64,000 nucleotides of DNA from NCBI RefSeq assembly GCF_006715175.1, contig NZ_VFMQ01000001.1, positions 124,001-188,000 on the forward strand, given 5' to 3'. Within the stretch, counting starts at the first letter, position 1; each line of letters starts with the position of its first letter. Shown one piece after another: positions 33,077 through 50,554 of this stretch. A model generated the notes under the pieces. That model did not search any database and was not told the origin of the DNA. It worked only from the letters and a program-made list of their open reading frames with translations. A program made the position numbers and the translations under genes. This DNA is from Curtobacterium citreum (GTDB lineage Bacteria; Actinomycetota; Actinomycetes; Actinomycetales; Microbacteriaceae).

Positions 33077-33104
33077 CGTCCGGTTGACGACCGTCTAACG
33101 GACG
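33077..33104 (+). repeat. 28-bp dyad element, copy 1
   Basis: Left arm CGTCCGGTTGAC, right arm GTCTAACGGACG, four-base centre. The outer seven bases pair perfectly. Core differs from most copies (GACC in place of GATC). Confidence 0.65.
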
Positions 33105-33109
33105 CGGCA

Positions 33110-33137
33110 TTCGTGTTCCCCGACTGGCTATCGAGGG
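33110..33137 (+). repeat. 28-bp dyad element, copy 2 (right half only)
   Basis: Only the right half, GACTGGCTATCGAGGG, matches the family; the left half is unrecognisable. It lies five bases after copy 1, as if an insert had been lost. Confidence 0.5.
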
Positions 33138-33178
33138 CGCTCCTAGCGCTGGTGCGCTCAGCCGAGGAGAGTGGGCGG

Positions 33179-33742
33179 ATGCGCTCGATCGTCACCGACA
33201 GACTGATTCTTCGACCTTGGGAGGAAGGCGACGCCGACTTTCTGTTCGACCTCGAATCACGCTGGGAGACCGTGAGGTACTTGGGCGCTGATCCCACGCC
33301 AATGCGGAGCAAGAGCGAGGCGGTCGCCTCGATTCAGCGACGGCGGGCACTCGACCACCCGGTGCACGGGATCTGGGCGATCGCGCGCCGAGACTCGAAC
33401 GCGCTTGCGGGCAACCTCTTACTGAAGCCTGCACACCTCTCGGCTGGAGCTTCTGGCGAACGTCCCGTCGAAATTGGCTGGCACCTGCATCCGAGCGCTC
33501 AGTCGCTCGGGTTCGCGACGGAGGCCGCCGCCGGCGCCCTCACGGACGCAGCCAGTCGGGGGCTTGCTTCCGTGCTGGCGGTCACTGACCCGAGGAACAG
33601 TGCCTCGCACCGGGTATGCCGTCGCCTTGGATTCGCCGAGGAAGGGATCACGAGCCGTTTCTATGACAGCCCGCAGCTCGTCTTCTCTCGTGTTCTGTCG
33701 GGGGACACACCCCCAACTCCCGCAAGCCACACCGTCCGGTAG
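33179..33742 (+). CDS. GNAT family N-acetyltransferase
   Basis: A 187-residue acetyltransferase of the RimJ/RimL-like group: it opens with IVTDRLILRPWEEGDADFLF, has RPVEIGWHLHPSAQSLGFAT (acetyl-CoA loop region with Q-S-L-G-F-A-T-E-A) and ends with TDPRNSASHRVCRRLGFAEEG. The target is unknown. ATG 33179 is preceded by GAGGAGAG. Its last codons and stop (GTC CGG TAG) lie inside the 28-bp element at 33733, so element and gene are joined as in a cassette. Confidence 0.87.
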   Translation: MRSIVTDRLILRPWEEGDADFLFDLESRWETVRYLGADPTPMRSKSEAVASIQRRRALDHPVHGIWAIARRDSNALAGNLLLKPAHLSAGASGERPVEIGWHLHPSAQSLGFATEAAAGALTDAASRGLASVLAVTDPRNSASHRVCRRLGFAEEGITSRFYDSPQLVFSRVLSGDTPPTPASHTVR

Positions 33743-33760
33743 CCGATCGGCTATCGGACG
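33733..33760 (+). repeat. 28-bp dyad element, copy 3
   Basis: CGTCCGGTAGC, core CGATCG, GCTATCGGACG: near-perfect 28-base palindrome (one G/A asymmetry). It provides the TAG stop of the acetyltransferase gene. Confidence 0.85.
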
Positions 33761-34111
33761 CCGATCCGAGCGCGCCTGTGGTCGCGGACGACACTATCCA
33801 CTTCGCACTCGCGAGCCGTGTTGGTCTTGTCTCGTGACCGACCACCACGCCGCGAGAGTCACCGAACTCGTGCGAGACATGGCTGCGAGCCGGTCAACGC
33901 GGGTCTGCTCTGGGAGAGTGGACCACACGTCGAGGCATCTCGCAGCCGTAGGGTTGCAAAGGGCGAACCTCACACAAACCTGACCGTGTAGAACTCATCC
34001 GCCGCTCGCGGCAGAGGTCGTCGCCACCTTGCGTGAGAATTCAGGGCAGGACCCGGCAAGCGCTCCGAGTCCCGCCCTAATTATGCACGCATAACTCAGT
34101 GCGATTAATTG
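33761..34111. other. Gene-poor stretch
   Basis: No gene can be supported in these 351 bases. A 49-codon plus-strand frame (33834-33983) starts at GTG but has no recognisable feature. The last 100 bases become AT-rich (TAATTATGCACGCATAACTC near 34078) and introduce the low-G+C toxin-like unit. Confidence 0.4.
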
Positions 34112-34402
34112 CTACCGCGCTTCACCGAACCCAAATTTGCTCTCTTGGATAAAGGTGGTGAAATTATCAGTAAAAGAGCGAATCCAATCGGAGTCCTTCT
34201 GGCCCCTCACCATCCCGAGCAGAAACTCCTCGCCCAATACAACAATCTTGAGGAAATCCGAGTCAGATACTTCTGCGTCCGCCGGCCGCCGGCGCCCATC
34301 CGCGTCGACGAACTCCAGCTCCGAGCTCGCCAATTCATTCTCACGCAGAAGTCCCCCGATAAGGCTGCGAGTAAGGTCTTCTGCGTGACCGATTGTAGTC
34401 AT
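34112..34402 (-). CDS. Small acidic protein coupled to surface protein (candidate immunity protein)
   Basis: A 96-residue acidic, helical protein without signal or membrane segment. Its ATG overlaps the stop of the large exported-protein gene by four bases (ATGA), so it is translated with it. It is markedly AT-richer than most of the window. Small cytosolic proteins encoded directly after a large secreted protein with a distinct C-terminal domain are typically immunity proteins of polymorphic toxins; that role is inferred from context only. I recognise no family. Confidence 0.6.
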   Translation of the reverse strand: MTTIGHAEDLTRSLIGGLLRENELASSELEFVDADGRRRPADAEVSDSDFLKIVVLGEEFLLGMVRGQKDSDWIRSFTDNFTTFIQESKFGFGEAR

Positions 34403-36724
34403 CAGCGGGTCCGATTTGTCACGATAAAGATGCCAGAGCAGTCCACCCATGCAGTACCGGGACGGCCCGCAACAGTTTTGCGGAAGGAAATGTAGTCATA
34501 ATAACTGATCTGGTGACCCACTTGGATGTTTGACATTACGCCATGGAACCAGTACGTGCAATAATACTCATCATGGGGGGAACCCTTCGCGGACGTTCGT
34601 GAAGTGTGATCCCACCACTGCATCCCGGTTTCGTGCGTTTTTGATGTTGCGCCCGAGCAGAAAATAACACTCGCACGGAAGCCCCATTTGACCCGAGGAG
34701 CTCCGCAGTCTCGCCGAAGAGAAAGTTCGCCGTTGAACGTGGAGTAGTTGTAGTCCTTGTTACACCGCAGACCCTCGCCTACTGGCCCGGGAACGGATGC
34801 GGTATGCATCAGGCGCGTCGTAGAGGCCAGCTGCACGGAGGGTGAAATCGTCGAGCGCCGGAAGGTCGCAGTACTAGGCGAGGCGGTATCGTCGCCGTCC
34901 GTCGGTGCGGGGTAGCTGTCGGCGTCCGCGGGAGCGCCGCCTTGGTCCGGCGCCGAAGAGTCGGTCGTGAAGGAACTCAGCGCCGTCGTGAGCTGCCCCT
35001 GCTGACCGTCGAGCGTTGCTGTCGCCTGTGCTGACCAATAGTACGTCTTGTTAGCGCTGAGAAGGCCGGCTGGCAGATCCCACCCACCCTGCAGCCCATC
35101 CTGGCTTGCGATGGGCGCGGCCGTAGTGTCCAGGGTGTCCCAAATTTTGTAAACGTACGTTGCATCGTTCGGGATTGTCGAGTCCTCGGTCCAGATTCTG
35201 AGCGACGGTGCTGCCGATGACGTTGAGCCATCTTCGGGCGTCACCTGGTAGGAGGAGGTTGTCCAGTCACCGAAAGTGGCGAACCAGGCTCCCGACATGA
35301 CAGTGCCATCAGCTTGGTCTCTGTTCACCGAAATGAGGTGCCGGCCTGGTGTATCCGGGACGTGGACGGGGATGGAGGTTTTGGTCGTCTCAGAGAGCGC
35401 GACATTTACTGGGTCGTTTTGATCCAGCATCAGCGTGATGGATTCACCCGAACGGTCAGCAGGCGTAGCGGTGATAGTGCAATCAACACCCCCTGATGGA
35501 ATTGTCTTCAGCCAGGCACCGGGCGCGATTGAGCCACACTGAATCACCGCCGGGGAGGGGTTTGAGTACCACCCCTGTACGTCAAATACGTAGTTGGTGG
35601 CGTCCGCGACATTGTTGAGGGACACCTTCCCATTTGCGCCGAGAGGCACGGTGATGGTGTTGGTGCGGATGGTCGTCTCGTCGAAGTTGATCGAGGTCGT
35701 GCTCGGGCGAGTGGTGCCATCGGCCCAGACAGTGGCGTTTCCGTTTCCGGCGGTGCTCTTGAGCGCGGTGAGGGTCAGCACGACAGCGTTGATGCCCGAT
35801 CCCATGACAGGCACGCCCGCTTTGCCCGCGATCTGGATCGAACGCGTCTCGTTCTTGCCCATGACCGTGTTCCCGCTCGTGCGAGTGTCGTAGGCCCGCC
35901 CAGCACCAGGGGTGAAGACGGCGCCACCCCTACCAGCGGCAGTGAAGTATCCCTGGACCTCGAGGACGAGGTCGGCGGTGCTGTCCTGGTTGAACACGGT
36001 CAGCTTCCCAGCGGAGGACAGCTTGACCTGCGCCTGCATCGACGTCGCAACGCCACCGCCGGCGTAGTTGAACGAGTTCGGCGGACGGGTGCTGCCAGTC
36101 GGGTATGGGGTGAAGTAGCCAGAGGTGCTGCCGGTGTTCGCGGCGATCATGTTGACGATGACGGCTGAGGCATCCTTCGGAACACCGGCGACACCACCGA
36201 CCTGCAGATCCACCGTCTTCCCCGACGTCAGTGCCGCCTTGGGGGCGCCGGTGCCGTTGCGGGTGTCGACGATGCGGGAGCCGTTCATTGGGACGAAGCC
36301 GCCCGGTGCGGTGCCATCGGTGTTCGCCGTGTAGTAGCCCTGCACGTCCAGCAGGAGCCGAGCGTTCGTCTCCGCTGACACCTGGATGGTGCCGTCACTG
36401 TTGACGGCTAGGACGGCAGAGAAGGAGGTGTTCTGGTTGTTCTCGCCTCCGTAGATCCCCATCGTCGTGCTCGGCTTGTCCGCGTTCGGACGGCCGGTCA
36501 GGAGGCCCTGCTTCGAGATCCCGATCAGCGTCGCGACGACGGATACGGCGCCAGCGGAACCGTCGGAGGGTACCCCGCCCTTGCCTGCGACCTGGACGGT
36601 CTTCCACTGCTTGCCGGTCATCGCGCTATCGACGATGCGCGCCCCAGCAACCGGAACGAAGACGCCACCAGTACCGGTGTCGCTCAGCGCCTGAGCTGGC
36701 GTCGCGGCCAGGAAAGAGCCCAAG

Positions 36725-36750
36725 GGGACTGCTGCAGGTTTGGTTGACTC
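36725..36750 (+). repeat. IS3 left terminal inverted repeat
   Basis: GGGACTGCTGCAGG then TTTGGTTGACTC; it matches the right end in 25 of 26 positions (T versus C). Confidence 0.9.
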
Positions 36751-36793
36751 CTGACAGGTAGGGGCACTGGTTCCTGCTGGAAGGATGTGCGCC

Positions 36794-37090
36794 ATGGTGA
36801 AGGCGTATCCGGAAGAGTTCCGCCGTGATGTGATCGCGGTCGCTCGGAAGGGTGAGGCGTCGGTGCGGCAGGTCGCGAAGGACTTCGGAGTGTCCGAGTC
36901 CTGCCTGGCCCGCTGGCTGCGCCTCGCGGACCGCGACGACGGCATCAGCGCTGCAGCGGCTCCGTCGGGGAGAGCGGTCGAGCAGGCGGAGCTGCGGGAC
37001 GCGCAGAAACGGATCCGGTTGCTCGAGCAGGAGAACGAGATCCTCCGCCGGGCGGCGGCGTACTTCGCCCAGTCGCAGCTCCCAAAATGA
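36794..37090 (+). CDS. IS3-family transposase OrfA (helix-turn-helix)
   Basis: A 98-residue DNA-binding protein: MVKAYPEEFRRDVIAVARKG, then SVRQVAKDFGVSESCLARWL as HTH, and a C-terminal leucine-zipper-like segment (LRDAQKRIRLLEQENEIL) used for multimerisation. GGAAGG at 36779-36784 suits ATG 36794; ATG 36785 in the same frame is too close. Its TGA overlaps the orfB ATG in AAAATGA, which could allow coupled translation or a -1 slip on the A-run to make an OrfAB fusion. Confidence 0.92.
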   Translation: MVKAYPEEFRRDVIAVARKGEASVRQVAKDFGVSESCLARWLRLADRDDGISAAAAPSGRAVEQAELRDAQKRIRLLEQENEILRRAAAYFAQSQLPK

Positions 37091-37956
37091 TCTACCCGCT
37101 GGTCCTCGAACTCGCCGCAGACCGGATCCCGGTCGCGGTGGCCTGCCGGGTGCTGGGATTCTCGAAGCAGGCGTTCTATCGGTGGCGTGCGAGCCCCGTG
37201 TCGAACCGCGACTGGGACGACGCGCACCTGACCAACGCTGCGATTGACGCGCACCGGGATGACCCGACGTTCGGGTACCGGTTCATCGCCGACGACCTCC
37301 AAGCGGCCGGCCACCGGGTTTCGGAACGGCGGGTGTGGCGGTTGTGCTCCCAGCAGCGGCTCTGGTCATTGCACGCGAAGAAACGCGGCCTGCACCGCAA
37401 GGCGGGACCACCAGTGCACGACGACCGGGTCCGACGGGCGTTCACGGCACCGGATCTGGACCGGTTGTGGTTGACGGACATCACGGAGCATCGGACCGGT
37501 GAGGGCAAGCTCTACCTCTGCGCGATCAAGGACGCGTGCTCGCGGCGCATCGTCGGCTACTCGATCAGTGACCGGATGCGTTCCTCGCTCGCCGTCGCGG
37601 CCCTGCAGATGGCAGTGCAGCGCCGGAACCCGGCCGGGACGGTCGTGCACTCGGACCGCGGCAGCCAGTTTCGTTCCAAGCGCTTCGTCCGTGCGATCGA
37701 GGACGCCGGGCTGCTTGGGTCGATGGGGCGGGTCGGGGCGTGCGCGGACAACGCGGCGATGGAATCCTTTTTCGCGCTCCTGCAGAAGAACGTCCTCAAC
37801 CGGACACGATGGGCCACCCGGGAAGAGCTCCGGCTCGCGATCATCACCTGGATCGAAGCGACCTACCACCGGAAACGACGGCAACGAGGTCTCGGCAAGT
37901 TGACCCCGATCGAGTACGAGACGATCATCAACCCACAGGTCGCACTCGCGGCCTAA
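37087..37956 (+). CDS. IS3-family transposase OrfB (DDE catalytic)
   Basis: A 289-residue integrase-core protein. N-terminal HTH_21-like part (RVLGFSKQAFYRWRASPV), then the DDE residues: Asp in RLWLTDITEH, Asp in VVHSDRGSQF, and Glu in ADNAAMESFFALLQKN. The C-terminus has TYHRKRRQRGLGKLTPIEYE, the usual end of IS3 OrfB. Length and motifs are complete, so the enzyme should be functional. Confidence 0.95.
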   Translation: MIYPLVLELAADRIPVAVACRVLGFSKQAFYRWRASPVSNRDWDDAHLTNAAIDAHRDDPTFGYRFIADDLQAAGHRVSERRVWRLCSQQRLWSLHAKKRGLHRKAGPPVHDDRVRRAFTAPDLDRLWLTDITEHRTGEGKLYLCAIKDACSRRIVGYSISDRMRSSLAVAALQMAVQRRNPAGTVVHSDRGSQFRSKRFVRAIEDAGLLGSMGRVGACADNAAMESFFALLQKNVLNRTRWATREELRLAIITWIEATYHRKRRQRGLGKLTPIEYETIINPQVALAA

Positions 37957-37962
37957 ACGAAT

Positions 37963-37988
37963 GAGTCAACCGAACCTGCAGCAGTCCC
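37963..37988 (-). repeat. IS3 right terminal inverted repeat
   Basis: Reads inward on the minus strand as GGGACTGCTGCAGG then TTCGGTTGACTC; followed by target duplication AAG. Confidence 0.9.
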
Positions 37989-38409: not shown

Positions 38410-38437
38410 CGTCCGGTAGCCGATCGGCTATCGGACG
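38410..38437 (+). repeat. 28-bp dyad element, copy 4
   Basis: Identical over 28 bases to copy 3 at 33733 (CGTCCGGTAGC, CGATCG, GCTATCGGACG). The pair flanks the acetyltransferase-to-exported-protein segment in direct orientation. Confidence 0.88.
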
Positions 38438-38477
38438 GCTGATGGAGCGGGCATCCGGTGAACGCTCATCGGAGGGG

Positions 38478-38889
38478 CTACGTGTCGGATTGGCCGCTTT
38501 GAGTGCGGGGCCTTCGGCCTATGCGAGCTATCGCAACGAGCGCGCCGATGGCCACCGCGAGCAGGACGGCGCCAACGACTAGGCCGAGGACTGCGTTTTC
38601 CCGGTGGTTCACCGAGAGCCCAACGGCCCCGAGGAACAGCCCCCATTCCAGTGAACAAGATCACACAGAACCCGACGAAAATCCATTGAGCCCGCGCACT
38701 TGCGCTTCCGCCCCTCTGCCGAGCAAGAACAAGCGTCGACACGTACGCGGGGAGAATGAACCCCGCGATCGGGAAGTACCAACTCAGTGCCAGGAGTGCG
38801 AAGCCGCTGGCAAGGAGACCCGTCATCCACGGCACCCACCAGCGAGCACCAACCACCTGCTTCGTGGCGTCGTCTGAAGCTGGTTCCAC
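38478..38889 (-). pseudogene. Small four-helix membrane protein with a +1 frameshift
   Basis: The frame starts at ATG 38889 (MEPASDDATKQVVGARWW) with two membrane helices and continues to FCVILFTGMG. At a run of five G (minus strand, about 38640-38644) the coding signal moves to another frame, which encodes two more helices: WGLFLGAVGLSVNH and LVVGAVLLAVAIGALVAIAR, and ends RTQSGQSDT-stop at 38478. Removing one G restores a roughly 136-residue protein. Without that correction the original frame runs to a TAG inside the element at 38410. It may be a genuine mutation or a homopolymer sequencing error. Function unknown. Confidence 0.72.
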
Positions 38890-38919: not shown

Positions 38920-38947
38920 TGCCCGTTGGCCGATCCGTCACCGGACG
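38920..38947 (+). repeat. 28-bp dyad element, copy 5 (diverged)
   Basis: GTTGGCCGATCCGTCACCG then GACG matches the family at most core positions but GGCTAT is changed to CGTCAC. Confidence 0.55.
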
Positions 38948-39000: not shown

Positions 39001-39594
39001 ATGCCCGTTCGGTCTCTCGACAAGCTCGAAGACGCCACCTTCGACGTCACCGCCGCAAGAGTCGTCAGCGGAGAGTTCATGCTGCACAGGTCCGTCGTCG
39101 AGCACGACACGAGCGCCGGGACAGTTCGACTTCCCGTCACGCTGACCGTGCCCGATGCGGTGAGCGTCGTCGTTGATGTCGCCGACGGAATAGGCGAACT
39201 CATCCTCGAGACCGTCGACGTGACCGCGTCGGCGGTGACGCTCCAAGGCGTCAGCCCGTGCACGGTCGTCGTGACCACGGCCGTGCAGAGCCAGGTACTG
39301 CTTGACGTCAGCACGACTCCTGTCGCGGTCCGCCGTTGGTGGCGATGGCGGCCGTGGGACGGAACCACGCCGGTCATCCTCGACCACCGCGCCGTGTCGA
39401 GACGCCTCCGGGAGAACGCTTGCCCCGCGTGTACACACCCGTGGGACGAACACCCCACCGAACGAGACACGACTGGCGCGACGTGCGGCGAATGCGACTA
39501 CGAGCTGGAGCACGGCGAACTCCCTCGCGGCCGGGCGGTCTGCACGGCGCAGATACCGCAGCAACTCATCGAGCCAGAGCCATCCGATCTGTGA
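39001..39594 (+). CDS. Hypothetical protein with C-terminal zinc ribbon
   Basis: A 197-residue protein. Residues 1-110 are beta-rich with alternating Val/Thr strands (VTLTVPDAVSVVVDVADG and VTASAVTLQGVSPCTVVVTT), suggesting a jelly-roll or repeat barrel. A WWRWRPWDG linker leads to a C-terminal CPACTHPWDEH ... CGECDYELEHGE module that should bind zinc. No family recognised. GAGG lies nine bases before ATG 39001. It sits alone between elements 5 and 6, opposite in strand to its neighbours. Confidence 0.7.
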   Translation: MPVRSLDKLEDATFDVTAARVVSGEFMLHRSVVEHDTSAGTVRLPVTLTVPDAVSVVVDVADGIGELILETVDVTASAVTLQGVSPCTVVVTTAVQSQVLLDVSTTPVAVRRWWRWRPWDGTTPVILDHRAVSRRLRENACPACTHPWDEHPTERDTTGATCGECDYELEHGELPRGRAVCTAQIPQQLIEPEPSDL

Positions 39595-39627: not shown

Positions 39628-39655
39628 GCCCCGTTGAGCGATCGGCTATCGTGCG
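39628..39655 (+). repeat. 28-bp dyad element, copy 6
   Basis: Left arm diverged (CCCCGTTGAGC), core GATCG intact, right GCTATCGTGCG. It contains the TAG stop of the minus-strand gene ending at 39646. Confidence 0.7.
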
Positions 39656-40086
39656 CTCCTCGCTCGCTTCCACTCGGCTAGATCGAGAAAGTGAAAGTGA
39701 GTCCCGTACTCGTTCGGGCTCTCCGCGGGGTCGACCCGCTCGACGCTGAACAGCACGCCGTGCAGCAAGAACGTCCCGCCCGCGAGTTCCTCAAACCCAT
39801 CCGCCTCGAACGGGAACCCGTCACTGATGCCGTAGCTCAGCGCCCCATCCGGCCAAGCGAGGTGAGTGTCGAAGTCCCAGAAGTCGACGTACCAGTCACC
39901 GACGAGCCGGGGCCGGACCCACCGCCTGTTCCACCATGGCCCTTCCACCTCGTACGCGTGATCGGGGCGCACGGACAGATAGCCAGCGAGATCAGATGGA
40001 GCATCTGGAAGGTGGAGCTTGTACAGCCCTGCCTCGACATTCGTGGGTAGCGACGGTGCGGGCTCCTTGGATGGACAGAACAACAC
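39646..40086 (-). CDS. Hypothetical protein
   Basis: A 146-residue soluble protein rich in Trp, Phe, Tyr and acidic residues (GPWWNRRWVRP, GDWYVDFWDFDTHLAWPDG, FEELAGGTFLLHGVLFSV). No signal or membrane helix. I recognise no family; such orphan cytosolic proteins are common cassette cargo. The end (GCA CGA TAG) is encoded inside the 28-bp element at 39628. No clear ribosome site is seen; ATG 40086 is the first start in frame. Confidence 0.68.
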   Translation of the reverse strand: MLFCPSKEPAPSLPTNVEAGLYKLHLPDAPSDLAGYLSVRPDHAYEVEGPWWNRRWVRPRLVGDWYVDFWDFDTHLAWPDGALSYGISDGFPFEADGFEELAGGTFLLHGVLFSVERVDPAESPNEYGTHFHFLDLAEWKRARSAR

Positions 40087-43332: not shown

Positions 43333-43621
43333 CAAGACGGCGACGTTGATCTGTGGACATGAACGCTGCTAGCGATCGACGACTGGTCCGATGAGGGGAA
43401 GGTGGCAACGATGCCGTTCACCGCCCCTCGTGGACTGTTCCCCACGAAGCCTGCGCCCGAGCTTGTCGGACCGCGGCCGATCCCTCCCGGAGTCATGGCA
43501 ACGCAGCACTGAGCTGACCAGCAAGGGTCAGCCTTCCTCGCCGCGAGCGTTCTGCTCGCGTGCTTCTGCATGCCCGCGCCGTCGCCCAGCGGCGGCGCGC
43601 TGACTTCACGGGAACATCTCC
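43333..43621 (+). promoter_or_regulatory. Leader region with small ORF and hairpins before an MFS gene
   Basis: The 289 bases upstream of ATG 43622 hold a 33-codon ORF (43411-43512), a hairpin GCTGACC/GGTCAGC right at its stop (43513-43532), a second hairpin CGCGAGC/GCTCGCG (43542-43560), and a G+C-rich stretch before GGGA and the ATG. This layout fits ribosome-mediated attenuation, as known for several actinobacterial antibiotic-export genes. Confidence 0.55.
43411..43512 (+). CDS. Putative leader peptide of an MFS exporter
   Basis: A 33-residue frame preceded by GGGAAGG (43396-43402), encoding a proline-rich peptide (MPFTAPRGLFPTKPAPELVG, then PRPIPPGVMATQH). Its stop overlaps the base of a hairpin. 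Seven prolines, with a PIPPG run, could stall a ribosome. Whether it is translated is not shown by the sequence alone. Confidence 0.45.
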   Translation: MPFTAPRGLFPTKPAPELVGPRPIPPGVMATQH

Positions 43622-44662
43622 ATGCTCTTCGCCCCTGCCCGATTCCGGGCTTCACTCGCGAACCTGCGCGAACACCGCTTCGTCACGTTCGCGGTGCTGA
43701 CCGACACCATCGGCGCCGGCCTCACGCTGCCGCTGACGATCGTCTACTTCACCATCACCACCGACGTGCCCCTGGCGGTCATCGGTGTCCTCTCGACCGT
43801 CGCATCACTAGTCGCCCTCCCCATCGGACTCGTCGGCGGGCTCCTCGAGCAGGCGTACGACGACGTCGACTACATCTCGGCCCACGCGTACTACGAGGAA
43901 GAGGGCGACATGTCCTCGTTCCTGGCGTCCGGCGTGAACATGGACCACTTCATCGACACGGTCACGACCGCCGCCGACCACGTCAAGGCGCACAAGAAGT
44001 CCGACAAGCGGATCGACATCTCGTTCGACGAATGGAACGTCTGGTCGCTCAGCAAGTGGAACGAGCAGCAGAAGACCTTCGAGCTCCAGGACTGGCCGGT
44101 CGCGCCGCGCCTCCTCGAGGACGTCTACACCGTCGCGGACGCGGTCGTCGTCGGCGGCCTCCTCATCACGCTGCTCCGCCACGCCGACCGCGTCGCGTCG
44201 GCGAGCCTCGCGCAGCTCGTCAACGTGATCGGCCCGATCATGACCGAGCCCGGCGGGCCGGCCTGGCGCCAGACCACGTTCTTCCCGTTCTCGCTCACGT
44301 CGCGCCTGGCGAACGGCACGTCGCTGCAGGTGAAGGCCTCCGGTGACACCGTCGACGGCGGCAAGCACGGCGAGGTCCCGGTCGTCGACTCGGCCGCCAC
44401 GGTCGAGGACGGCAAGGCGGCGGTGTTCCTCGTGAACCGCCACCAGACCGAGACCACCACGGTCACGATCGACCTGGCCGGCCTGCAGGTCGACGGTGAC
44501 GTCCGTGCCGAGGGCGTCTGGGACGACGACGTGCACGCCGTCAACGACCTCGGGAACCGCGAGCGCGTCGGGCTGCGGACGAACGACACGGTCCGTCGCG
44601 ACGGCGACACGATCACCATCGAGCTGCCGCCGGTCTCCTGGACCGCGGTGTCGATCGGCTGA
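43622..44662 (+). pseudogene. In-frame chimera: MFS N-terminus fused to GH51 arabinofuranosidase C-terminus
   Basis: A single open frame of 346 codons. Residues 1-74 are the first two helices of an MFS exporter (REHRFVTFAVLTDTIGAGLT, LPLTIVYFTITTDVPLAVIG, VALPIGLVGG). From about residue 75 it is the C-terminal part of an alpha-L-arabinofuranosidase (GH51): AYDDVDYISAHAYYEEE, ISFDEWNVWS with the catalytic nucleophile Glu, and the beta domain ending in ITIELPPVSWTAVSIG. The acid/base Glu and the first part of the barrel are missing. Neither activity should survive. The missing end of the MFS lies at 48364. Confidence 0.85.
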
Positions 44663-44806
44663 GCTCCGCCGGCTCCGGCCGGCGGTCGAGCGCCTCGGCG
44701 AGCGCCACGGTGAGCGTCGAGTGAGCACGGGAGGGCGTCGGTCCGCGTGAGCGGGTCGGCGCCCTCCCGCTGTCCGTCGGACCGCTCGCGACCCGGCACA
44801 GGACGG
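44663..44806. other. Spacer after the GH51 fragment
   Basis: No gene is seen. Together with the family-A hairpin and the small frame at 44907 it fills the 533 bases between the chimera and the AraC gene. Confidence 0.4.
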
Positions 44807-44844
44807 ACGGGAGGATCGTGGCGGGGCCGCCACGATCCTCCCGT
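44807..44844. terminator. Family-A hairpin, copy 5 (variant)
   Basis: ACGGGAGGATCGTGGCGG pairs perfectly with CCGCCACGATCCTCCCGT, two-base loop. GGACGGACGGGAGG at its edge matches the family, and its presence shows that this block comes from the same kind of chromosome as the left region. Confidence 0.72.
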
Positions 44845-44906
44845 GGCGGGGCCCGGTCCCCGCACCGGGCCCCGCGCACGCGGCGGACGTGCCTGCAGTG
44901 CGGGGC

Positions 44907-45047
44907 ATGACGGGGACGGAGGAGCCGGACGGAGCGGGACAGCTCGGGCCGTTCCAGGACGACTTCGTCGCGTCGATGGCAGCCTGGACACCGTCGGGGG
45001 ACGCCGGTCCCGAGCCCGGTTCGTCCGCAGGACGAAAGATCCGGTGA
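44907..45047 (+). CDS. Possible small protein, 46 residues
   Basis: A short frame starting ATG 44907 (MTGTEEPDGAGQLGPFQDDF) and ending in GRKIR. It is acidic then basic and has no membrane segment. G-rich sequence precedes the ATG but there is no clear ribosome site. I cannot link it to a family. Confidence 0.3.
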   Translation: MTGTEEPDGAGQLGPFQDDFVASMAAWTPSGDAGPEPGSSAGRKIR

Positions 45048-45195
45048 CCGGCGGTTGACGTCTGCCGTCGGTCCGGTCATCCTCGGAGCACGGCAGCGTT
45101 GCGGTGGTGGATCAGGTCCCCGTGACGCGGGGTCGGTGCCTGTTCGGGTCAGGTCGCCCCGGTGACCGCGACCGACCGGGTCGCGGTCACCGCCG

Positions 45196-46191
45196 TCACC
45201 GCCGCAGCGTCTGTCGCGGGTACTCGCCGACCGCGCGGAGGTACTCGCCCGCGAACCGGCCGAGGTGTGCGAAGCCCCACCGCCGGGCGACCTCCTGCAC
45301 GCTCGTCGTCGCCGGGTCCGACCGTCGGAGTTCGATGCGCACCCGCTCGAGACGGACGCGGCGCACGTAGTTCATCGGGGTCGTGTCGAGGTCCCGCTGG
45401 AACGCCTCCTGCACCGCGCGGATGCTGAGGCCGGCGGCGTCCGCGATGTCGGCGACGGAGAGCGGACGGTTGAGGTGCTCGTGCACGAACTCCACCGCTG
45501 CCCGCAGACGGGCCTTCCGGGGCAGGAGCACGACCGCCGGCAGCTCGGGCGCCGCCGGGGGGTACAGGTCGAGGAAGGCCGAGGCGGCCTCGCGCGTGAG
45601 CGTGTGCCAGAGGAGCGTTCCGACGCCGTGCCGGAGCTCCTGCGCGAGGAGCGTCATCTGCCGGCGCCAGCGCGCGACGGCCTCGGCGTCGAGCTCGCGG
45701 AGGTGGTCGAGCGCGAGGTCCGTCACCTGCCCGGTGTGGAACCGCTCCGCGGACACCTCGTGCACGAGGTCGCGGGACAGGTGCACGAGCCGCTGGTCGT
45801 AGTCCTCGTACGCGAACACGAACTCGCGGTCGCTCGGGAACAGCATCGGCGTGCCGATGCGCATCGGGACGCCGTCCTGGCGGACGTCCGGCACCCCCGT
45901 CCCCTCGGTGAGCCACTGCACGACGTAGTCGTCGGTGTGCGGGATCGCGCCGCGGATGGCCCCGGTGATCCGGGACCGTCGGAGGGTGACGGCGGCGTCG
46001 CCGACCGCGGTGTAGCGGTAGGTGAACGGCTGCTCGGTGGCGTGGGCGGACCAGCCCCGGCCGCCGTACAGGCCCCCGACCTCGTGGACGACGCCCTCCG
46101 GCTGCGTCCCGGCGGCCTCGAGCCGGACAGCGTGGGGTGTGGGCGTCCCGTCCGCCGGGACGGGACGTGCTCCGGCGTCGACGGCGGTCAT
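45196..46191 (-). CDS. AraC family transcriptional regulator
   Basis: A 331-residue regulator. The N-terminal 200 residues form an AraC-binding-like-2 type sensor domain (GAIPHTDDYVVQWLTEGTG, MLFPSDREFVFAYEDYDQRL). The HTH pair follows: RPLSVADIADAAGLSIRAVQ, EAFQRDLDTTPMNYVRRVRL, and VQEVARRWGFAHLGRFAGEY ending GEYPRQTLRR. The start overlaps the stop of a small upstream gene by four bases (46188-46191). It lies in the 4.5-kb core-like block. Targets unknown. Confidence 0.92.
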   Translation of the reverse strand: MTAVDAGARPVPADGTPTPHAVRLEAAGTQPEGVVHEVGGLYGGRGWSAHATEQPFTYRYTAVGDAAVTLRRSRITGAIRGAIPHTDDYVVQWLTEGTGVPDVRQDGVPMRIGTPMLFPSDREFVFAYEDYDQRLVHLSRDLVHEVSAERFHTGQVTDLALDHLRELDAEAVARWRRQMTLLAQELRHGVGTLLWHTLTREAASAFLDLYPPAAPELPAVVLLPRKARLRAAVEFVHEHLNRPLSVADIADAAGLSIRAVQEAFQRDLDTTPMNYVRRVRLERVRIELRRSDPATTSVQEVARRWGFAHLGRFAGEYLRAVGEYPRQTLRR

Positions 46192-46406
46192 CGTGTCGCC
46201 TCGAAGAAGTCGGCGTACGAGGGCTCGGAGCCGGAGCCGGCGGCCCGGAGCCGCACCACGGCGGCGAGTGCGGACGGATCGGCGAGACCGGCCCGCCGTC
46301 GCCACTCGGCCGCCGTCACCGGTAGCGCATCGGGCCGGATCGGCGGTGCGTAGGTCGTGCGGGTCTTCGGCCCGCGGCCGAGGACGTCGGTCGCGGTGTG
46401 CATCAT
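46188..46406 (-). CDS. Small protein coupled to the AraC gene
   Basis: A 72-residue soluble basic protein (MMHTATDVLGRGPKTRTTYA; ending SEPSYADFFEATR). Its TGA overlaps the AraC ATG (ATGA), so it is cotranslated. No motif is recognised. GGGGTGG before the start is a weak ribosome site. It could modulate the regulator or simply couple its translation. Confidence 0.55.
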   Translation of the reverse strand: MMHTATDVLGRGPKTRTTYAPPIRPDALPVTAAEWRRRAGLADPSALAAVVRLRAAGSGSEPSYADFFEATR

Positions 46407-46590
46407 CTGGACCACCCCTGCATGGCTCGGAGGACGTGTGGACGTTCCGGCTGCCGGGGTCTGGGGCTGCTCGTCGCCACCGTAGGACACGGGCGCTCGA
46501 CGTGTCGACAGTTCGGGCTCCGTGACCGGGCGGACGATCCAGGTTGCGCGGCCGACGTCGTCCTCCGGGCGGCGCGTGGCGAGGTCCGGG

Positions 46591-46619
46591 GGTCGGTCGC
46601 TACCGTGGGGCGACCGACC
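46591..46619 (+). promoter_or_regulatory. Hairpin before the first GAF-ANTAR gene
   Basis: GGTCGGTCGC and GCGACCGACC pair with a nine-base loop containing TACCGT. It lies 26 bases before the GTG start; it may be an operator or a leader hairpin. Confidence 0.4.
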
Positions 46620-46644
46620 GACGTGCGACGAGAGGACCGACGGG

Positions 46645-47322
46645 GTGACGCACACCGCTGACGACCTCGCCGCTCCGTACACGGTGCTCCCGGTCGACGG
46701 TGTGGCGATCTCCACGCTGGCGTCCCCGCTCGGTGCCGAGACCGTGGCAGCGAGCAACGCGTTCGCCGCGCGGCTCGACGAGATCCAGCTCGACCTGGGC
46801 GAGGGGCCGATCTGGCAGGCGGTCCGGGACCGGCACCCGGTGCTCCGTCCCGAGCTCGGTGCCACCGGTCCGGACGAGTGGCCCACCGCGCTTGCGGCGC
46901 TCCGTGCGGCCGGGACCGGCGCGGTGTACGCCTTCCCGATGCACGTCGGTACCCTCACCGTCGGGACCGTCGGCCTCTACGCCACCCTCGGTTCGACGCT
47001 CTCCACGGCGGACGCGCCGGGCATCGAAGGACTCGCCGGGCGCACCGCCCGACTCGTCCTCGCGCGCGGCCTGCAGCGGGCGGTCGACGAACGACCGGGG
47101 GAGTGGTCCTCGGGACCGTGGTCCCGCCGCGAGGTCCACCAGGCGGCCGGCATGGTCGCCGCGCAGACGGGGACCACCCCGGACGACGCGCTGCTGCTCC
47201 TCCGGGCGTCCGCCTTCGCGAGCGGGCAGAGTGTCCTGCAGGTGTCCGCGCGGGTCCTCGAACGCGAGATCGACTTCGGTGATCCGTCGGGAACGGACGC
47301 ACCGGGAAGGAACACGCCATGA
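46645..47322 (+). CDS. GAF-like/ANTAR-domain protein
   Basis: A 225-residue protein. Residues 10-150 form a GAF-like domain (DLGEGPIWQAVRDRHPVLRP and AFPMHVGTLTVGTVGLYA are typical of this group), and residues 158-215 form an ANTAR helix bundle (SRREVHQAAGMVAAQTGTTP, DALLLLRASAFASGQSVLQV). ANTAR domains bind dual-hairpin RNA to block termination. GTG 46645 follows GAGAGG. It overlaps the next, paralogous gene by four bases. Confidence 0.87.
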   Translation: MTHTADDLAAPYTVLPVDGVAISTLASPLGAETVAASNAFAARLDEIQLDLGEGPIWQAVRDRHPVLRPELGATGPDEWPTALAALRAAGTGAVYAFPMHVGTLTVGTVGLYATLGSTLSTADAPGIEGLAGRTARLVLARGLQRAVDERPGEWSSGPWSRREVHQAAGMVAAQTGTTPDDALLLLRASAFASGQSVLQVSARVLEREIDFGDPSGTDAPGRNTP

Positions 47323-48059
47323 CCGAGGACCGAGAGCGTCGGCTCATCGACGCCTTCCTCACGGCCACGGGCACGCTCGTCGGCGACTACGACGTGGTCG
47401 AGATGCTGCAGACGCTGATCGACGACATCCAGGAGCTGTTCGACGTCGACGCGGTCGGCATCATGCTCGCGAACCAGCAGCAGGAGCTCGAGGTCGTGGT
47501 CTCGACGAGCGAGGCGAGCGCCCTGCTCGGCGTCCTGCAGCTCGAGGCCGGCGAGGGACCGTGCGTCGAGTCCTACGAGACCGGTCGGACCGTCTGGGTC
47601 GCGGACCTCGAGGACATGCGCCGCCGGTGGGCACGGTTCGCCGAGGAGTCGGAACGCGCCGGGTTCGCCTCGGTGCACTCGGTCCCGCTGCGCAGTCGGG
47701 AGGCCGTGCTCGGCTCGATGAACCTGTTCCGCATCGAGCCGGGGCGCCTCAACGAGCAGGACGCGGTGGCGGCGCGGGCGCTGACGGACGTCGCGACGAT
47801 CAGCATCCTGCAGCAGCGCGACGCGGACCAGGCCGCCCGGACGCAGCAGCAGCTGCAGCAGGCGTTGGACAGCCGGGTCGCGATCGAGCAGGCCAAGGGC
47901 TTCCTGGCGCACACGCACCGCGTCGACCTCGACACCGCGTTCGCGATGCTGCGTGCGCACGCCCGGTCGCACGGGCTGCTGCTGCAGGACGTCGCCCGTG
48001 CCGTGACCGAGCGACGGCTGGACCTCGCGCAACCGGAGTCGGCGGACACCCGCCGCTGA
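47319..48059 (+). CDS. GAF/ANTAR-domain protein
   Basis: A 246-residue protein with a GAF domain (residues 15-160: GEGPCVESYETGRTVWVADL, GFASVHSVPLRSREAVLGSM) and a C-terminal ANTAR domain (SRVAIEQAKGFLAHTHRVDL, DTAFAMLRAHARSHGLLLQD), where the AIEQAKG and A...LR..AR residues are the RNA-binding consensus. It probably senses a small ligand or redox state and antiterminates target transcripts. Its ATG overlaps the first GAF-ANTAR gene; the two may form a heterodimer. Confidence 0.92.
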   Translation: MTEDRERRLIDAFLTATGTLVGDYDVVEMLQTLIDDIQELFDVDAVGIMLANQQQELEVVVSTSEASALLGVLQLEAGEGPCVESYETGRTVWVADLEDMRRRWARFAEESERAGFASVHSVPLRSREAVLGSMNLFRIEPGRLNEQDAVAARALTDVATISILQQRDADQAARTQQQLQQALDSRVAIEQAKGFLAHTHRVDLDTAFAMLRAHARSHGLLLQDVARAVTERRLDLAQPESADTRR

Positions 48060-48062
48060 CGA

Positions 48063-48365
48063 TCACCGGGTCCGTGCCGCCCGGGCGCGGTCCTTGATCG
48101 CCTCGATCACCTCGGTCTTGGCATCGGCGTACGCGTTCATGTCGTCCCAGCTGCGGGTCATCAGCGTCCGCTTGACGTCCTCGTACCGCTGGCGGTCCGC
48201 GGCGTCCCGGCGGAGGTGGTCCCGGAGCAGCAGGTACGCGTCGAGCGCGGGCGCGCCGTGCTCGTACACGTGGACGTGCACGTCCCGCTCCGGGGTCCGG
48301 ACGAGCCGGTGCCCGGGCTCGCGGACGCGCAGCTCGTAGCCGGCGGCCAGGAGCGGCTCGGACAT
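48063..48365 (-). pseudogene. GrpB/UPF0157 C-terminal remnant
   Basis: About 100 codons match the end of a GrpB (UPF0157, nucleotidyltransferase-fold) protein: YELRVREPGHRLVRTPERDV, HVHVYEHG, YLLLRDHLRRDAADRQRYED. The N-terminal GSTAVPGL-type active-site part is missing. An ATG at 48365 exists but is at the junction with the MFS fragment, so it is probably fortuitous. Confidence 0.72.
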
Positions 48366-48633
48366 GATCTACCTGCCCGCGGCGAACGCGGTCATGGCCG
48401 AAGCTCCGCACCCGCGAATTCGCGGTCGAGCAATCGGGGTGTTCCAGACCGCGAGCTCAATCGGCATGGCGTTGTTCCCGCTCACCCTGGGCCTGTTGGA
48501 CTCACGAACGCCGTGGCTGCTGTGGCTCATCGCTACATGCGTGTTCGTCGCTGCCGCGTGGGCCTGGCGCGAAGCAGTACGAGGCCTGCCGCAACGAGTG
48601 CGAGTTGCCGAGCTGACTGACGTCGACGCGTGA
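48364..48633 (+). pseudogene. MFS transporter C-terminal remnant
   Basis: About 89 codons encode the last helices of an MFS exporter (IYLPAANAVMAEAPHPRIRG, RAIGVFQTASSIGMALFPLT, LLWLIATCVFVAAAWAWRE). This is the same strand and family as the N-terminal piece at 43622-43845; the two are plausibly ends of one gene whose middle (about 240 codons) has been replaced by the 4.5-kb block between them. A strong hairpin follows. Confidence 0.75.
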
Positions 48634-48639
48634 GAGGCG

Positions 48640-48670
48640 CTTGGCCGGACCTAACCGAGTCCGGCCAAGC
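48640..48670. terminator. Hairpin terminator of the MFS gene
   Basis: GCTTGGCCGGA and TCCGGCCAAGC are perfect 11-base arms with a 9-10 base loop; no long U-tract. Confidence 0.7.
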
Positions 48671-48673
48671 ACC

Positions 48674-48701
48674 GTCTCGATAGCCGATCGGCTACCGAGA
48701 C
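48674..48701 (+). repeat. 28-bp dyad element, copy 11
   Basis: GTCTCGATAGC, CGATCG, GCTACCGAGAC: near-perfect palindrome of the GTCTC/GAGAC type. Confidence 0.85.
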
Positions 48702-48760: not shown

Positions 48761-49063
48761 CTAGGACTCCCGCCCGGCGACGTTCGTTTCCCAGTGTGCG
48801 AACACGATTGAGTCGCCCAGACCCAGTTCCCGAGCAATCGCCCCGGCCAGACGCTCACCCTTGAGTCGCTGCTCATCGCAAGTCCGTGTATCGGGCCAGC
48901 CAGTCTCGTAGGAGTACAGCGAATTGAATGTGGCAGCCCATTGGCGAATGTCTGCCTCGAGCCACGCCGGTAGCTGCGGCTCCCCATCCGGCGCTCCGCC
49001 GTCGTCCCGCCAGAGCGGCCAGTCGGCGCTGTAGTCGTTCATGAGTCGATAGCGCACCTTCAC
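48761..49063 (-). CDS. Hypothetical protein
   Basis: A 100-residue soluble protein (MKVRYRLMNDYSADWPLWRD, WLEADIRQWAATFNSLYSYE, GERLAGAIARELGLGDSIVF). Helical with many Trp and acidic residues. No family recognised with certainty. ATG 49063 is used; ATG 49042 (MNDYS) is an alternative. It is the only gene between elements 11 and 12. Confidence 0.7.
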   Translation of the reverse strand: MKVRYRLMNDYSADWPLWRDDGGAPDGEPQLPAWLEADIRQWAATFNSLYSYETGWPDTRTCDEQRLKGERLAGAIARELGLGDSIVFAHWETNVAGRES

Positions 49064-49088: not shown

Positions 49089-49116
49089 GTCCCGATGGCG
49101 GATCGGCTACCGGTCT
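49089..49116 (+). repeat. 28-bp dyad element, copy 12
   Basis: GTCCCGATGGC, GGATCG, GCTACCGGTCT. It supplies the TAG stop (49107) of the following minus-strand gene. Confidence 0.78.
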
Positions 49117-49433
49117 GCCGAACGCTGCTCGCCCTCGGGCAGAAGATGCCCGATGGCTCGTAGGACGTCGCCCAGCCAAACGAGTTCCCAGTTCAACGTC
49201 CGGTCGGCGGCCGGCGCTGACGTCAGGTTGTCCCACGACTCGGTCAGCTGCCCGATCGTGGCCTCGGGTGGATTGCTCGACACGTCGTACAGGCCCGGAG
49301 CGGGCAACGAGTAGAAGTAGTCCTCACGCAGCACGACCGACTCCCCGTTCGCATGTTCGACGTGCTGAAGGATCCGATCGAACACGAGACGGAGATCAGT
49401 CACCGGGATCTGAAGACCGTTCCACTCAGGCAT
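49107..49433 (-). CDS. Hypothetical protein
   Basis: A 108-residue soluble protein (MPEWNGLQIPVTDLRLVFDR, VLREDYFYSLPAPGLYDVSS, DRTLNWELVWLGDVLRAIGH). It looks like a compact alpha/beta domain. No family recognised with certainty; likely cytosolic. Its end (GCA GAC CGG TAG) is encoded by the 28-bp element at 49089. It is the only gene between elements 12 and 13. Confidence 0.72.
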   Translation of the reverse strand: MPEWNGLQIPVTDLRLVFDRILQHVEHANGESVVLREDYFYSLPAPGLYDVSSNPPEATIGQLTESWDNLTSAPAADRTLNWELVWLGDVLRAIGHLLPEGEQRSADR

Positions 49434-49458: not shown

Positions 49459-49486
49459 GTCTCGTCAACCGATCGTTCATCGGACG
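49459..49486 (+). repeat. 28-bp dyad element, copy 13 (mixed arms)
   Basis: GTCTCGTCAAC, CGATCG, TTCATCGGACG: GTCTC-type left arm, GGAC-type right arm. Confidence 0.68.
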
Positions 49487-49591: not shown

Positions 49592-49750
49592 ATGAGGAAA
49601 CGGTTGCTCGTGTTCAGCCCCCCTGCCGGCGCGCTCGTGTTGTTGGCCGCCTGGTGGGTCACCCAGCGAGCTGGCGTCGTGGATGTAGTCCCGACGCGGG
49701 ACGACACTTTCCTGACGAACCCGTACGCAGTGCTCGTGATGATCGGGTAG
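49592..49750 (+). CDS. Small membrane protein, 52 residues
   Basis: MRKRLLVFSPPAGALVLLAA begins a basic start plus one membrane helix; a TRDDTF loop and a second short hydrophobic end (NPYAVLVMIG) follow. A TACCGTGAT hexamer-like element lies 8-16 bases upstream, suggesting a leaderless message. The frame is convergent with the SnoaL-like gene 12 bases away. Function unknown. Confidence 0.5.
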   Translation: MRKRLLVFSPPAGALVLLAAWWVTQRAGVVDVVPTRDDTFLTNPYAVLVMIG

Positions 49751-49762
49751 TCGCTCGCTGCT

Positions 49763-50179
49763 TCATGAACGGGGGTTACCGCCGGCCTGTTGGGCTTCCC
49801 AAGCAGTTCGAATGGGATCGGTGTCGTACACGATGTGCAGGTGTTGAATCCGGGCTTCCAGGTCTAGCTCGGCGACGTCAACCACGGAGAACGGTGCAGG
49901 GGTGCCGTCCGAGAGCGTCCAATCGAAGTCGAACCAGAACGCAACAGTCGGAGCCGAGTCGTCTGTGCTGACCAAGGTTCGGCGGAGCGTGAGGACGGAT
50001 GCGGCCGTGTCGGCGAACAATGTCGGGTAGAAGTCGCGGGCGGGCTGCTCCCCGTAAAGCGGTGAGCTCACAATCGCGTCCGGCGTGAACAGGGCGAGCA
50101 CCGCGTCTACGTCGGCTGATCCGAGAGCTGCGAGGTATGCATCGACGAGCTGTGTGAGGGTCGTTGCGGGGATGGTCAT
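49763..50179 (-). CDS. SnoaL-like/NTF2-like protein
   Basis: A 138-residue single-domain protein: TTLTQLVDAYLAALGSADVD, AVLALFTPDAIVSSPLYGEQ, FWFDFDWTLSDG, VVDVAELD and RIQHLHIVYDT correspond to the cone-shaped SnoaL-like fold. The family covers isomerases, cyclases and binding proteins. ATG 50179 is preceded by a GGGG-poor leader (CGAAAGCGATCACTG), so expression is probably modest. It is bounded by 28-bp elements at 49459 and 50280. Confidence 0.8.
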   Translation of the reverse strand: MTIPATTLTQLVDAYLAALGSADVDAVLALFTPDAIVSSPLYGEQPARDFYPTLFADTAASVLTLRRTLVSTDDSAPTVAFWFDFDWTLSDGTPAPFSVVDVAELDLEARIQHLHIVYDTDPIRTAWEAQQAGGNPRS

Positions 50180-50279
50180 CAGTGATCGCTTTCGGAGGGG
50201 TTCGGCCCACAGCAGCTCGGGCCGGGCGACATTCACCAGCTTCCCATCACCAAAGGCGGAAGACGAACTTGGCTCGCTG

Positions 50280-50307
50280 GGTCCGGTTGACGACCGGCTA
50301 TCGGTCG
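50280..50307 (+). repeat. 28-bp dyad element, copy 14
   Basis: GGTCCGGTTGAC, GACC, GGCTATCGGTCG; resembles copy 1 at 33077 in its left arm. Confidence 0.75.
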
Positions 50308-50366
50308 CGGGAGCGGCGCTCGGCTCGAACTCGACGTCGCGCGTCCTGCTGATCCGGCAGCGGGTT

Positions 50367-50453
50367 TCAGCCCATGCTCCCGCGGGCCGCGAGGAAGACG
50401 AGCACGGCGACGATAACCAGTACCACCGGCGCAAGGAACTGCAGATTCAGCAT
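50367..50453 (-). CDS. Tiny hydrophobic peptide, 28 residues
   Basis: MLNLQFLAPVVLVIVAVLVF plus LAARGSMG: one membrane helix with a basic end, preceded by AGGGGC five bases before the ATG. It lies alone between elements 14 and 15, like a minimal cassette. It could be a type I toxin-like or small regulatory membrane peptide; only hydrophobicity and ribosome site support it. Confidence 0.4.
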   Translation of the reverse strand: MLNLQFLAPVVLVIVAVLVFLAARGSMG

Positions 50454-50526
50454 CGCTGCCCCTATCGATCGGTCGTGCCGTTTCAGACGTGGGTGGGGCA
50501 TGGCGAGCAGTTGGCGACAGAGGTGC

Positions 50527-50554
50527 CGTCCGGTTGACAATCGGCTATTGAGAC
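50527..50554 (+). repeat. 28-bp dyad element, copy 15 (mixed arms)
   Basis: CGTCCGGTTGAC, AATC, GGCTATTGAGAC: GTCCGG left arm with GAGAC right arm. It is the last copy in the window. Confidence 0.78.

Follow-up and report, generated by a model that had tools for sequence, protein, structure and literature searches.

The 28-bp dyad elements repeated between positions 33077 and 50554 of a 64,000-nucleotide stretch of the Curtobacterium citreum genome are very likely the boundaries of gene cassettes, and they probably serve as crossover sites of casR, a relative of DNA invertases and Tn3-type resolvases. We use casR as a label, coined in this analysis, for small serine recombinases of two clades (A and B), and "the window" for the whole stretch, which spans 0.124–0.188 Mb of the one 3.61-Mb contig of this genome. 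That the elements delimit cassettes had been suggested by an earlier interpretation of the window (hereafter, the sequence-only reading). The suggestion is now supported because the elements are clustered, form arrays throughout the genus, coincide at their centres with ends of homology blocks much more often than expected by chance, enclose segments that have other neighbours elsewhere, and co-occur with a recombinase.

The 28-bp element and its distribution

The sequence-only reading had listed 15 copies of a repeated 28-bp dyad, and weight-matrix scoring confirmed 13 of them as clear dyads. These scored 24.0–35.7 bits with a matrix of 14 copies and 19.1–34.0 bits leave-one-out, compared with best scores of 8.9–19.2 bits in 20 single-base shuffles of the window; the two weakest leave-one-out dyads, at 38920 (19.1 bits) and 49459 (19.4 bits), are merely level with the best shuffle. 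The copy at 33110 (9.6 bits leave-one-out) is weak and indistinguishable from chance, and the copy at 43311 is deleted in part, its gapped sequence scoring 8.8 and 12.8 bits on the two strands. If up to two mismatches are allowed, the window contains 17 occurrences of the core pattern CGATCGGCTATCG, compared with 3.35 on average and never more than 11 among 100 dinucleotide shuffles. One possible reading of the layout is 11-6-11 with CGATCG in the centre, and the genus-wide motif, approximately [CG][GT][CT][CT]CGGTAGC-CGATCG-GCTAYCG[GA]..., is near-palindromic. Information is limited to the 28 bp, with no conserved flank among 222 elements of at least 20 bits. The right half is the better conserved one, and for this half the copies do share an orientation, as had been claimed; for the element overall the claim fails, since the motif is almost a palindrome and can be matched on either strand in several copies. 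Perfect copies form a strong hairpin, and four of six window copies tested fold no better than shuffles.

With a genus-wide matrix, which was seeded with the same 13 window copies, 13 elements of at least 12 bits fall within 33000–50600 of the window and none within 1–32900 or 50700–64000. Elsewhere in the C. citreum genome, 18 other stretches (360 kb) hold 2 such elements, and copies outside the window, single or in small clusters, lie at 0.59, 0.87, 1.73, 1.86, and 3.26 Mb. Across a sample of one genome per species, a sequence-only model built from the 13 copies matched in 23 of 23 other Curtobacterium genomes and in 0 of 15 genomes that belong to the same order but to other families (E 0.02); family-wide, under stricter filters (E 0.003), 12 of 249 genomes (C. 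citreum included) and 5 of 85 genera were matched. At a threshold of 12 bits, 48 loci totalling 884 kb contain 267 elements and their reversed sequences 5; most of these loci were chosen for holding matches, and the matrix was refined on them. Elements are also present on Curtobacterium plasmids. The search of C. citreum and related genomes that the sequence-only reading had suggested thus returned an element that is clustered and recurs genus-wide.

Homology ends and segments with other neighbours

An all-against-all comparison of 65 Curtobacterium loci yielded 1565 distinct homology-block ends away from locus edges. Of these, 111 fall 5 bp or less from an element centre, against an average of 5.1 and a highest value of 13 in a null of 200 shifts; at 15 bp or less the count is 224, against 14.4 on average and 25 at most. 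The majority lie away from elements, as expected given partial gene homology and transposons.

Several window segments recur in other settings. The 247-bp segment at 50294–50540 is found on an 85-kb contig of another species (79% identity) with both homology ends in site cores, and a two-cassette block (49742–50543) recurs at 0.87 Mb in C. citreum (99%) with its right end in the core of site 14. Homology between the segment 40144–40848 and 0.87 Mb starts at 40147, beside the site core, and ends at ~40777, before the next site. The two parts of a major facilitator superfamily (MFS) cassette, at 43335–43839 and 48359–48701, correspond to one 1.63-kb cassette on plasmid D40, where it lies among ten elements in 8.5 kb and has neighbours that differ from those in the window. 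To the right of site 14, a match to plasmid G54a starts inside the site and extends to 51231; a homology boundary at window position 51198 was discarded as an artefact of query and locus ends, as a longer query matches to 51231.

With regard to an empty counterpart of the window array, genes of its left flank gave only short weak matches in 14 Curtobacterium genomes and genes of its right flank gave long matches in 4 of the 14, none of either in place, which left no empty locus to compare. Five other C. flaccumfaciens plasmids considered for comparison were set aside as uninformative because they share the same 24.9 kb with the queried plasmid.

Cassette structure and gene content

Segments were counted between neighbouring sites of at least 15 bits that lie 250–1600 bp apart, using a crude purpose-made caller of open reading frames (ORFs). 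The 166 Curtobacterium segments (median 657 bp) hold one ORF in 124 cases, two in 34, three in 3, and none in 5; the 93 Frigoribacterium segments hold one in 70, two in 19, three in 1, and none in 3. The claim that single small genes lie between copies therefore extends across the genus, as segments of ~650 bp that mostly hold a single ORF. Main ORFs lie on both strands (92 minus and 69 plus in Curtobacterium), and the site centre lies a median of 36 bp from the stop codon.

The domain scan covered 137 of the 210 main ORFs that encode 80 aa or more (the first 145 minus 8, five casR genes being among the 8), at least one of which (in L236) looks like a spurious antisense frame. The GNAT acetyltransferase family PF00583 was matched by 16 of the 137 proteins and four more GNAT-type models by 5–9 each; besides GNAT types, no family among the matches listed exceeded 4 of 137. 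In PADLOC, 10 models were matched, each by at most 2 of the 137. On plasmid D40 (L321, 1–8496), the ten elements part single genes annotated as nucleotidyltransferase, GrpB, GNAT, MFS, phosphotransferase, and barstar-family protein.

A serine recombinase accompanies the element

The casR proteins carry the Pfam domains Resolvase and HTH_7, and they match the DNA invertase structures 4m6f and 3uj3 (E 8.6e-33 and 1e-31), which we take to be Mu Gin, and gamma-delta resolvase (E 4.4e-22). Enzymes of the invertase/resolvase family use a serine nucleophile and exchange strands at a central 2-bp overlap, and the homology of casR implies the same for it.

Among 51 distinct serine-recombinase genes in Curtobacterium loci, an element of at least 11 bits lies within 150 bp of 14 of the 16 genes of clades A and B (~1.9 expected from local density) and of 2 of the 35 genes of other clades (~1.2 expected); the sample is biased in that some loci were chosen for elements and others for serine recombinases. 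The transposon-type resolvases (clades R and T) were element-associated in 1 of 24. In 80 named casR loci, nearly all outside the matrix, 287 elements of at least 13 bits were found compared with 5 in reversed sequence, and by hand count an element starts 135–163 bp upstream of the casR match in 48 of the 80. The number of sites at such a locus reaches 17 in 20 kb. Six from Frigoribacterium (L237, L244, L246, L249, L251, and L262) hold 11–17 elements each, and on a 56.5-kb Curtobacterium contig (L166) the site of casR comes after the gene, and after that site another ten elements that score 12 bits or more. Relatives of casR (E 1e-45) occur in 50 of 299 family genomes and 28 of 85 genera, a count that includes a 51% homologue in C. 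citreum, and a PF00239 match is present in 49 of 60 Curtobacterium genomes. A co-occurring recombinase, for which the sequence-only reading had proposed to look, was thus found in other genomes, and it is a serine recombinase.

In C. citreum itself, PF00239 matches are confined to 1.727–1.736 Mb and PF00589 matches lie at 1.48, 1.92, 2.17, 2.41, 3.05, and 3.28 Mb, all far from the window, in agreement with the remark that no recombinase is visible near the array. The PF00239 matches comprise an intact gene at 1.727 Mb and two gene halves at 1.734 and 1.735 Mb with an IS3-type insertion sequence (IS) between them; two 28-bp sites lie between this transposon-type resolvase and the IS-split one. 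The order at this locus (G000:C1:1727297–1732394; L002) is transposon-type resolvase, two TniA/TniB-like genes (by eye), site, LysR-like gene, transporter-like gene, and second site. The 1.727-Mb resolvase was rejected as the enzyme: it is 51% identical to casR and belongs to clade T, in which 0 of 4 genes have an element within 150 bp. Also rejected was a plasmid recombinase (clade P), which has a site ~105 bp past its stop codon in L319 and L320 and not in L315, and 0 of 2 more distant clade-P genes have one within 150 bp. The three Curtobacterium plasmids concerned (L315 26091–26714, L319 8706–9329, and L320 8079–8702) share a common locus of Lsr2, variable genes, recombinase, and variable genes.

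Two further observations concern casR relatives more widely. In the Arthrobacter group (L286, L289, L295, L306, L307, and L309) the upstream site is a variant, e.g., CCCGTAAGCCGGTCGATCACCG, and in L271 and L309 the majority of elements precede casR rather than follow it.

Site anatomy at casR and proposed mechanism

In 21 Frigoribacterium loci retrieved with a pattern for the proximal half-site, the site lies 143–162 bp upstream of casR. Its proximal half is identical in 19 of 21 loci and its distal half takes 20 distinct forms in the 21. At casR, a conserved 117-bp region separates the gene from the site. Homology between casR units of different Frigoribacterium loci most commonly starts at −131 to −133, i.e., at the site centre, and ends close to the stop codon of casR; in some alignments a few bases beyond the stop are included, and loci that share flanks align throughout. 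In clade B, an AT-centred site of at least 12 bits ends 44–45 bp upstream of the gene in four loci (L173, L140, L171, and L174); the best upstream site of L172 ends at −75, and a second site of this locus lies nearer the gene. Downstream, a site is present at 113–120 bp in five clade-B copies, with an AC centre in four of them, and at 45 bp in three. The clade-B gene itself can, it seems, be a cassette, because sites lie on both sides in 4 of 9 copies (L140, L171, L172, and L174).

We propose that each site would consist of two inverted half-sites flanking a central dinucleotide, usually AT, and that exchange in the centres of two sites would excise or insert the DNA between them as a circle. 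Single genes would thereby become cassettes, and arrays would grow. We infer that casR carries out this reaction, with a circular intermediate, and that arrays without a recombinase, such as that of the window, are served by casR in trans.

A set of three Frigoribacterium loci illustrates the proposed step. The locus of Frigoribacterium sp. PhB116 (L224) shares a 2-kb left flank (94%) with those of two relatives (L215 and L225) and carries one additional 657-bp segment, located between the flank half-site and the casR half-site. All three sites involved are GT-centred, and the outer half-site of L224 differs from that of L215 at 2 of 18 bases. A difference of this kind would be expected if one cassette had been inserted at the casR site.

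A number of observations speak against this account. The main open contradiction is the mismatch of central dinucleotides: clade-A casR sites in Frigoribacterium are GT-centred in 21 of 21 cases and array sites are AT-centred in 125 of 152, so that strict 2-bp matching would forbid exchange between them. Furthermore, neighbouring sites share a centre in 131 of 188 pairs, with no excess over the permutation mean of 137; homology ends centre on the dyad, yet neighbouring centres match no more than chance. In Curtobacterium the centres of 286 sites are AT (238), AC (24), GT (21), or other (3), a set for which wobble tolerance could account, and the mismatch is eased for this genus only, given AT-centred upstream sites and four AC-centred sites of five at 113–120 bp downstream in clade B. 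Known resolvases need accessory subsites, and no conserved accessory subsites were found within 20 bp of cassette sites. As for the enzyme, we found no intact casR in the C. citreum genome, four genomes (G005, G008, G016, and G067) have elements and no PF00239 match, and 2 of the 16 casR loci L215–L230 (L225 and L229) have no 11-bit element at the expected place. As for movement, a systematic search for filled and empty sites covered 55 gaps, none of which had an element at each of the three ends or at both insert ends, and a single-segment difference was found solely in the one hand-checked set of three Frigoribacterium loci, where 166–197, 95, and 35 bp beside the site do not align in L224, L215, and L225, respectively. 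In addition, the copy at 0.87 Mb in C. citreum abuts DNA without a recognisable second half-site.

Alternative explanations

Some of these points would be expected if another, unseen recombinase moved the AT-centred cassettes and casR were a frequent passenger cassette. The genomes that have elements and lack any PF00239 match fit this explanation, as does the AT/GT mismatch between arrays and clade-A sites. We nonetheless consider it unlikely, as the casR-proximal half-sites of the 21 Frigoribacterium loci stay constant at a near-fixed distance with variable distal halves, and clade-B upstream sites are AT-centred like the arrays.

It is also improbable that the elements are copies of res site I that Tn3- or Tn5053-type transposons have left behind or exchanged, with the segments being shuffled transposon modules. 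The half-site of resolvases is TGTCYGATA, which the element half-site resembles; the conserved 117-bp region at casR offers possible room for accessory subsites, and the two C. citreum sites at 1.73 Mb lie between a transposon-type and an IS-split resolvase. Such modules would not readily explain the low association of clades R and T with the element, nor up to 17 sites per 20 kb at casR with mostly single-ORF segments. Moreover, no transposase was recognised beside casR when the ORFs of L166 and L217 were read by eye.

A decidedly improbable explanation is that the array is a chromosomal pdif-module array whose 28-bp sites are dif-like and acted on by XerCD or a different tyrosine recombinase. 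Two PF00589 proteins were read by eye as resembling XerC and XerD, and the 11-6-11 layout is dif-like; this layout, together with the 1.73-Mb site pair, had suggested that the element might itself be dif. A search with a dif-type pattern gave GATAATGCATATTATG instead, a separate sequence found once in 21 of 24 Curtobacterium genomes (C. citreum included), as a one-base variant in 2 of 24, and missing from the genome that is 73% complete. We infer that GATAATGCATATTATG is the working dif of Curtobacterium because it resembles the dif of Frankia, a sequence quoted in a passage of PMC3025954. No PF00589 match lies within 20 kb of the C. citreum element clusters, the nearest being 25 kb away at 3.28 Mb, and the elements go with serine-recombinase clades A and B, tyrosine recombinases having been surveyed in C. 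citreum alone. The terminus could not be located from GC skew, which was too weak in the 20 C. citreum stretches sampled. On three other contigs (G006:C2:77672, G011:C9:31950, and G013:C5:29929) a further dif-like sequence, GATAATGTACCTTATG, was noted besides the chromosomal dif-type sequence.

Finally, the strong hairpin of perfect copies and their position shortly after stop codons (median 36 bp to the centre) recall repetitive extragenic palindromic (REP)-like repeats or bidirectional terminators at gene ends, with cassettes swapped by homologous recombination, but this is very hard to credit given that the element is clustered rather than scattered at gene ends as the sequence-only reading had envisaged for such repeats (2 in 360 kb elsewhere in C. 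citreum), that most window copies tested (4 of 6) do not fold better than shuffles, that a terminator scan gave 5 sites, none on an element and not above shuffles, and that breakpoints fall on 28-bp motifs, which would be short for homologous recombination.

Comparison with known systems and significance

Like integrons and clusters of attC sites lacking integron integrases (CALINs), the arrays consist mostly of single-gene cassettes, GNATs are among the cassette genes, some arrays have no recombinase, and others have a recombinase beside a site with a constant proximal half. The combination of a recombinase-proximal primary site with a cassette array is seen in Frigoribacterium and Curtobacterium, as a functional analogue, and not in the window. 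They differ from integrons in that the enzyme is a serine rather than a tyrosine recombinase, that attC features are lacking, and that the site is a short 28-bp dyad of double-stranded DNA type, often unfoldable, with genes on both strands; the same PF00589 survey of the C. citreum genome revealed no IntI-type tyrosine recombinase within 20 kb of element clusters. With the pdif modules of Acinetobacter plasmids the system shares 28-bp sites of 11-6-11 layout that bound small exchangeable modules on plasmids and chromosome, whereas the site here is not the dif-type sequence of the genus, is near-symmetrical, and is associated with a serine recombinase. Tn3 resolvase/res systems and Gin/Hin sites are similar in enzyme family, in the 26–28 bp dyad with a central dinucleotide, and possibly in accessory subsites upstream of casR; here, in contrast, minimal single copies are repeated and bound gene cassettes. 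Neither tnpA nor transposon terminal inverted repeats were recognised at casR in the two loci whose ORFs were read. As far as its sequences indicate, the array is neither an integron nor a pdif array, because the dif-type sequence of the genus differs and the associated enzymes are serine recombinases. This agrees with the earlier judgement that the element is neither a canonical attC nor a known dif site.

Capture of gene cassettes is known for the tyrosine recombinases IntI and XerCD. On balance, we lean towards a serine-recombinase platform in which casR and a 28-bp primary site would capture and excise single-gene cassettes and shuffle them between plasmids and chromosomes in Micrococcales, Curtobacterium and Frigoribacterium among them; this platform would have evolved independently of integrons and XerCD, and casR itself may travel as a cassette. 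If so, the gene-cassette strategy would have an independent origin in Actinobacteria by means of a serine recombinase, the element would be a boundary signal for reading hundreds of small accessory genes as mobile cassettes, and its short recombination sites could be tested in E. coli. A search of the open-access literature, with paywalled work and preprints outside its scope, found no such system in titles or opening abstracts among the matches listed.

Features of the window array

The array comprises the following features (bits "left out" are leave-one-out scores; Pfam matches are given with E-values).

33077..33104: site 1, CGTCCGGTTGA CGACCG TCTAACGGACG; 28.0 bits, 22.9 left out
33110..33137: weak copy or half-copy at chance level; 9.6 bits left out
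33179..33742, plus strand: cassette gene, GNAT acetyltransferase (PF13302, E 1.9e-24); stop codon inside site 2
33733..33760: site 2, foldable dyad (28-bp matrix match and fold)
34405..36750, minus strand: part of a long ORF in the oversized second segment, no Pfam match
36725..37988, plus strand: IS3-type insertion within the second segment, with terminal inverted repeats; matching plasmid DNA is annotated as IS3 family
38410..38437: site 3 (28-bp matrix match)
38428..38889, minus strand: cassette ORF, no Pfam match
38920..38947: site 4, weakest of the 13; 19.1 bits left out
39001..39594, plus strand: cassette ORF, no Pfam match
39628..39655: site 5 (28-bp matrix match)
39646..40086, minus strand: cassette ORF, no Pfam match
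40130..40157: site 6 (28-bp matrix match)
40144..40848: cassette segment; two pieces of it recur at 0.87 Mb in the C. citreum genome (96% and 89% identity)
40835..40862: site 7 (28-bp matrix match)
41095..41757, plus strand: cassette ORF, no Pfam match at E 0.01
41757..41972, plus strand: cassette gene, Cro/C1-type helix-turn-helix (HTH) protein (PF13443, E 1e-17)
41984..42011: site 8 (28-bp matrix match)
42283..42975, plus strand: cassette gene, DUF6766 protein (PF20554, E 1e-87)
43311..43338: site 9, deleted/gapped (sequence and matrix score)
43335..48701, plus strand: MFS-transporter cassette, split by ~4.5 kb of inserted DNA
48674..48701: site 10, near-perfect dyad (28-bp matrix match)
48761..49063, minus strand: cassette ORF, no Pfam match
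49089..49116: site 11 (28-bp matrix match)
49107..49433, minus strand: cassette ORF, no Pfam match
49459..49486: site 12 (28-bp matrix match); 19.4 bits left out
49722..49749: probable decayed junction, absent from the earlier list; left end of the block shared with 0.87 Mb, where the counterpart has a recognisable site
49763..50182, minus strand: cassette gene, SnoaL-like protein (PF12680, E 6.2e-9)
50280..50307: site 13 (28-bp matrix match)
50294..50540: 247-bp cassette, with homologues on the other-species contig and at 0.87 Mb
50527..50554: site 14 (28-bp matrix match)
50541..51231: DNA right of the array, also on plasmid G54a (90%)

The acetyltransferase, HTH, DUF6766, and SnoaL-like labels of the sequence-only reading are upheld by these Pfam matches; its DUF2975 label for 41095..41757 found no such backing. 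Rfam and tRNA scans of the window gave no match. With no recombinase of its own, one site deleted, one junction probably decayed, and two segments interrupted by insertions, the window array looks like an ageing one. The insert in the MFS gene (43840–48358) carries a fragment of an arabinofuranosidase C-terminal domain, an AraC-type regulator, and two GAF/ANTAR-type genes, and the IS3 element at 36725–37988 is identical over 1264 bp to the copy at 1.73 Mb (G000:C1, ~1734142–1735405).

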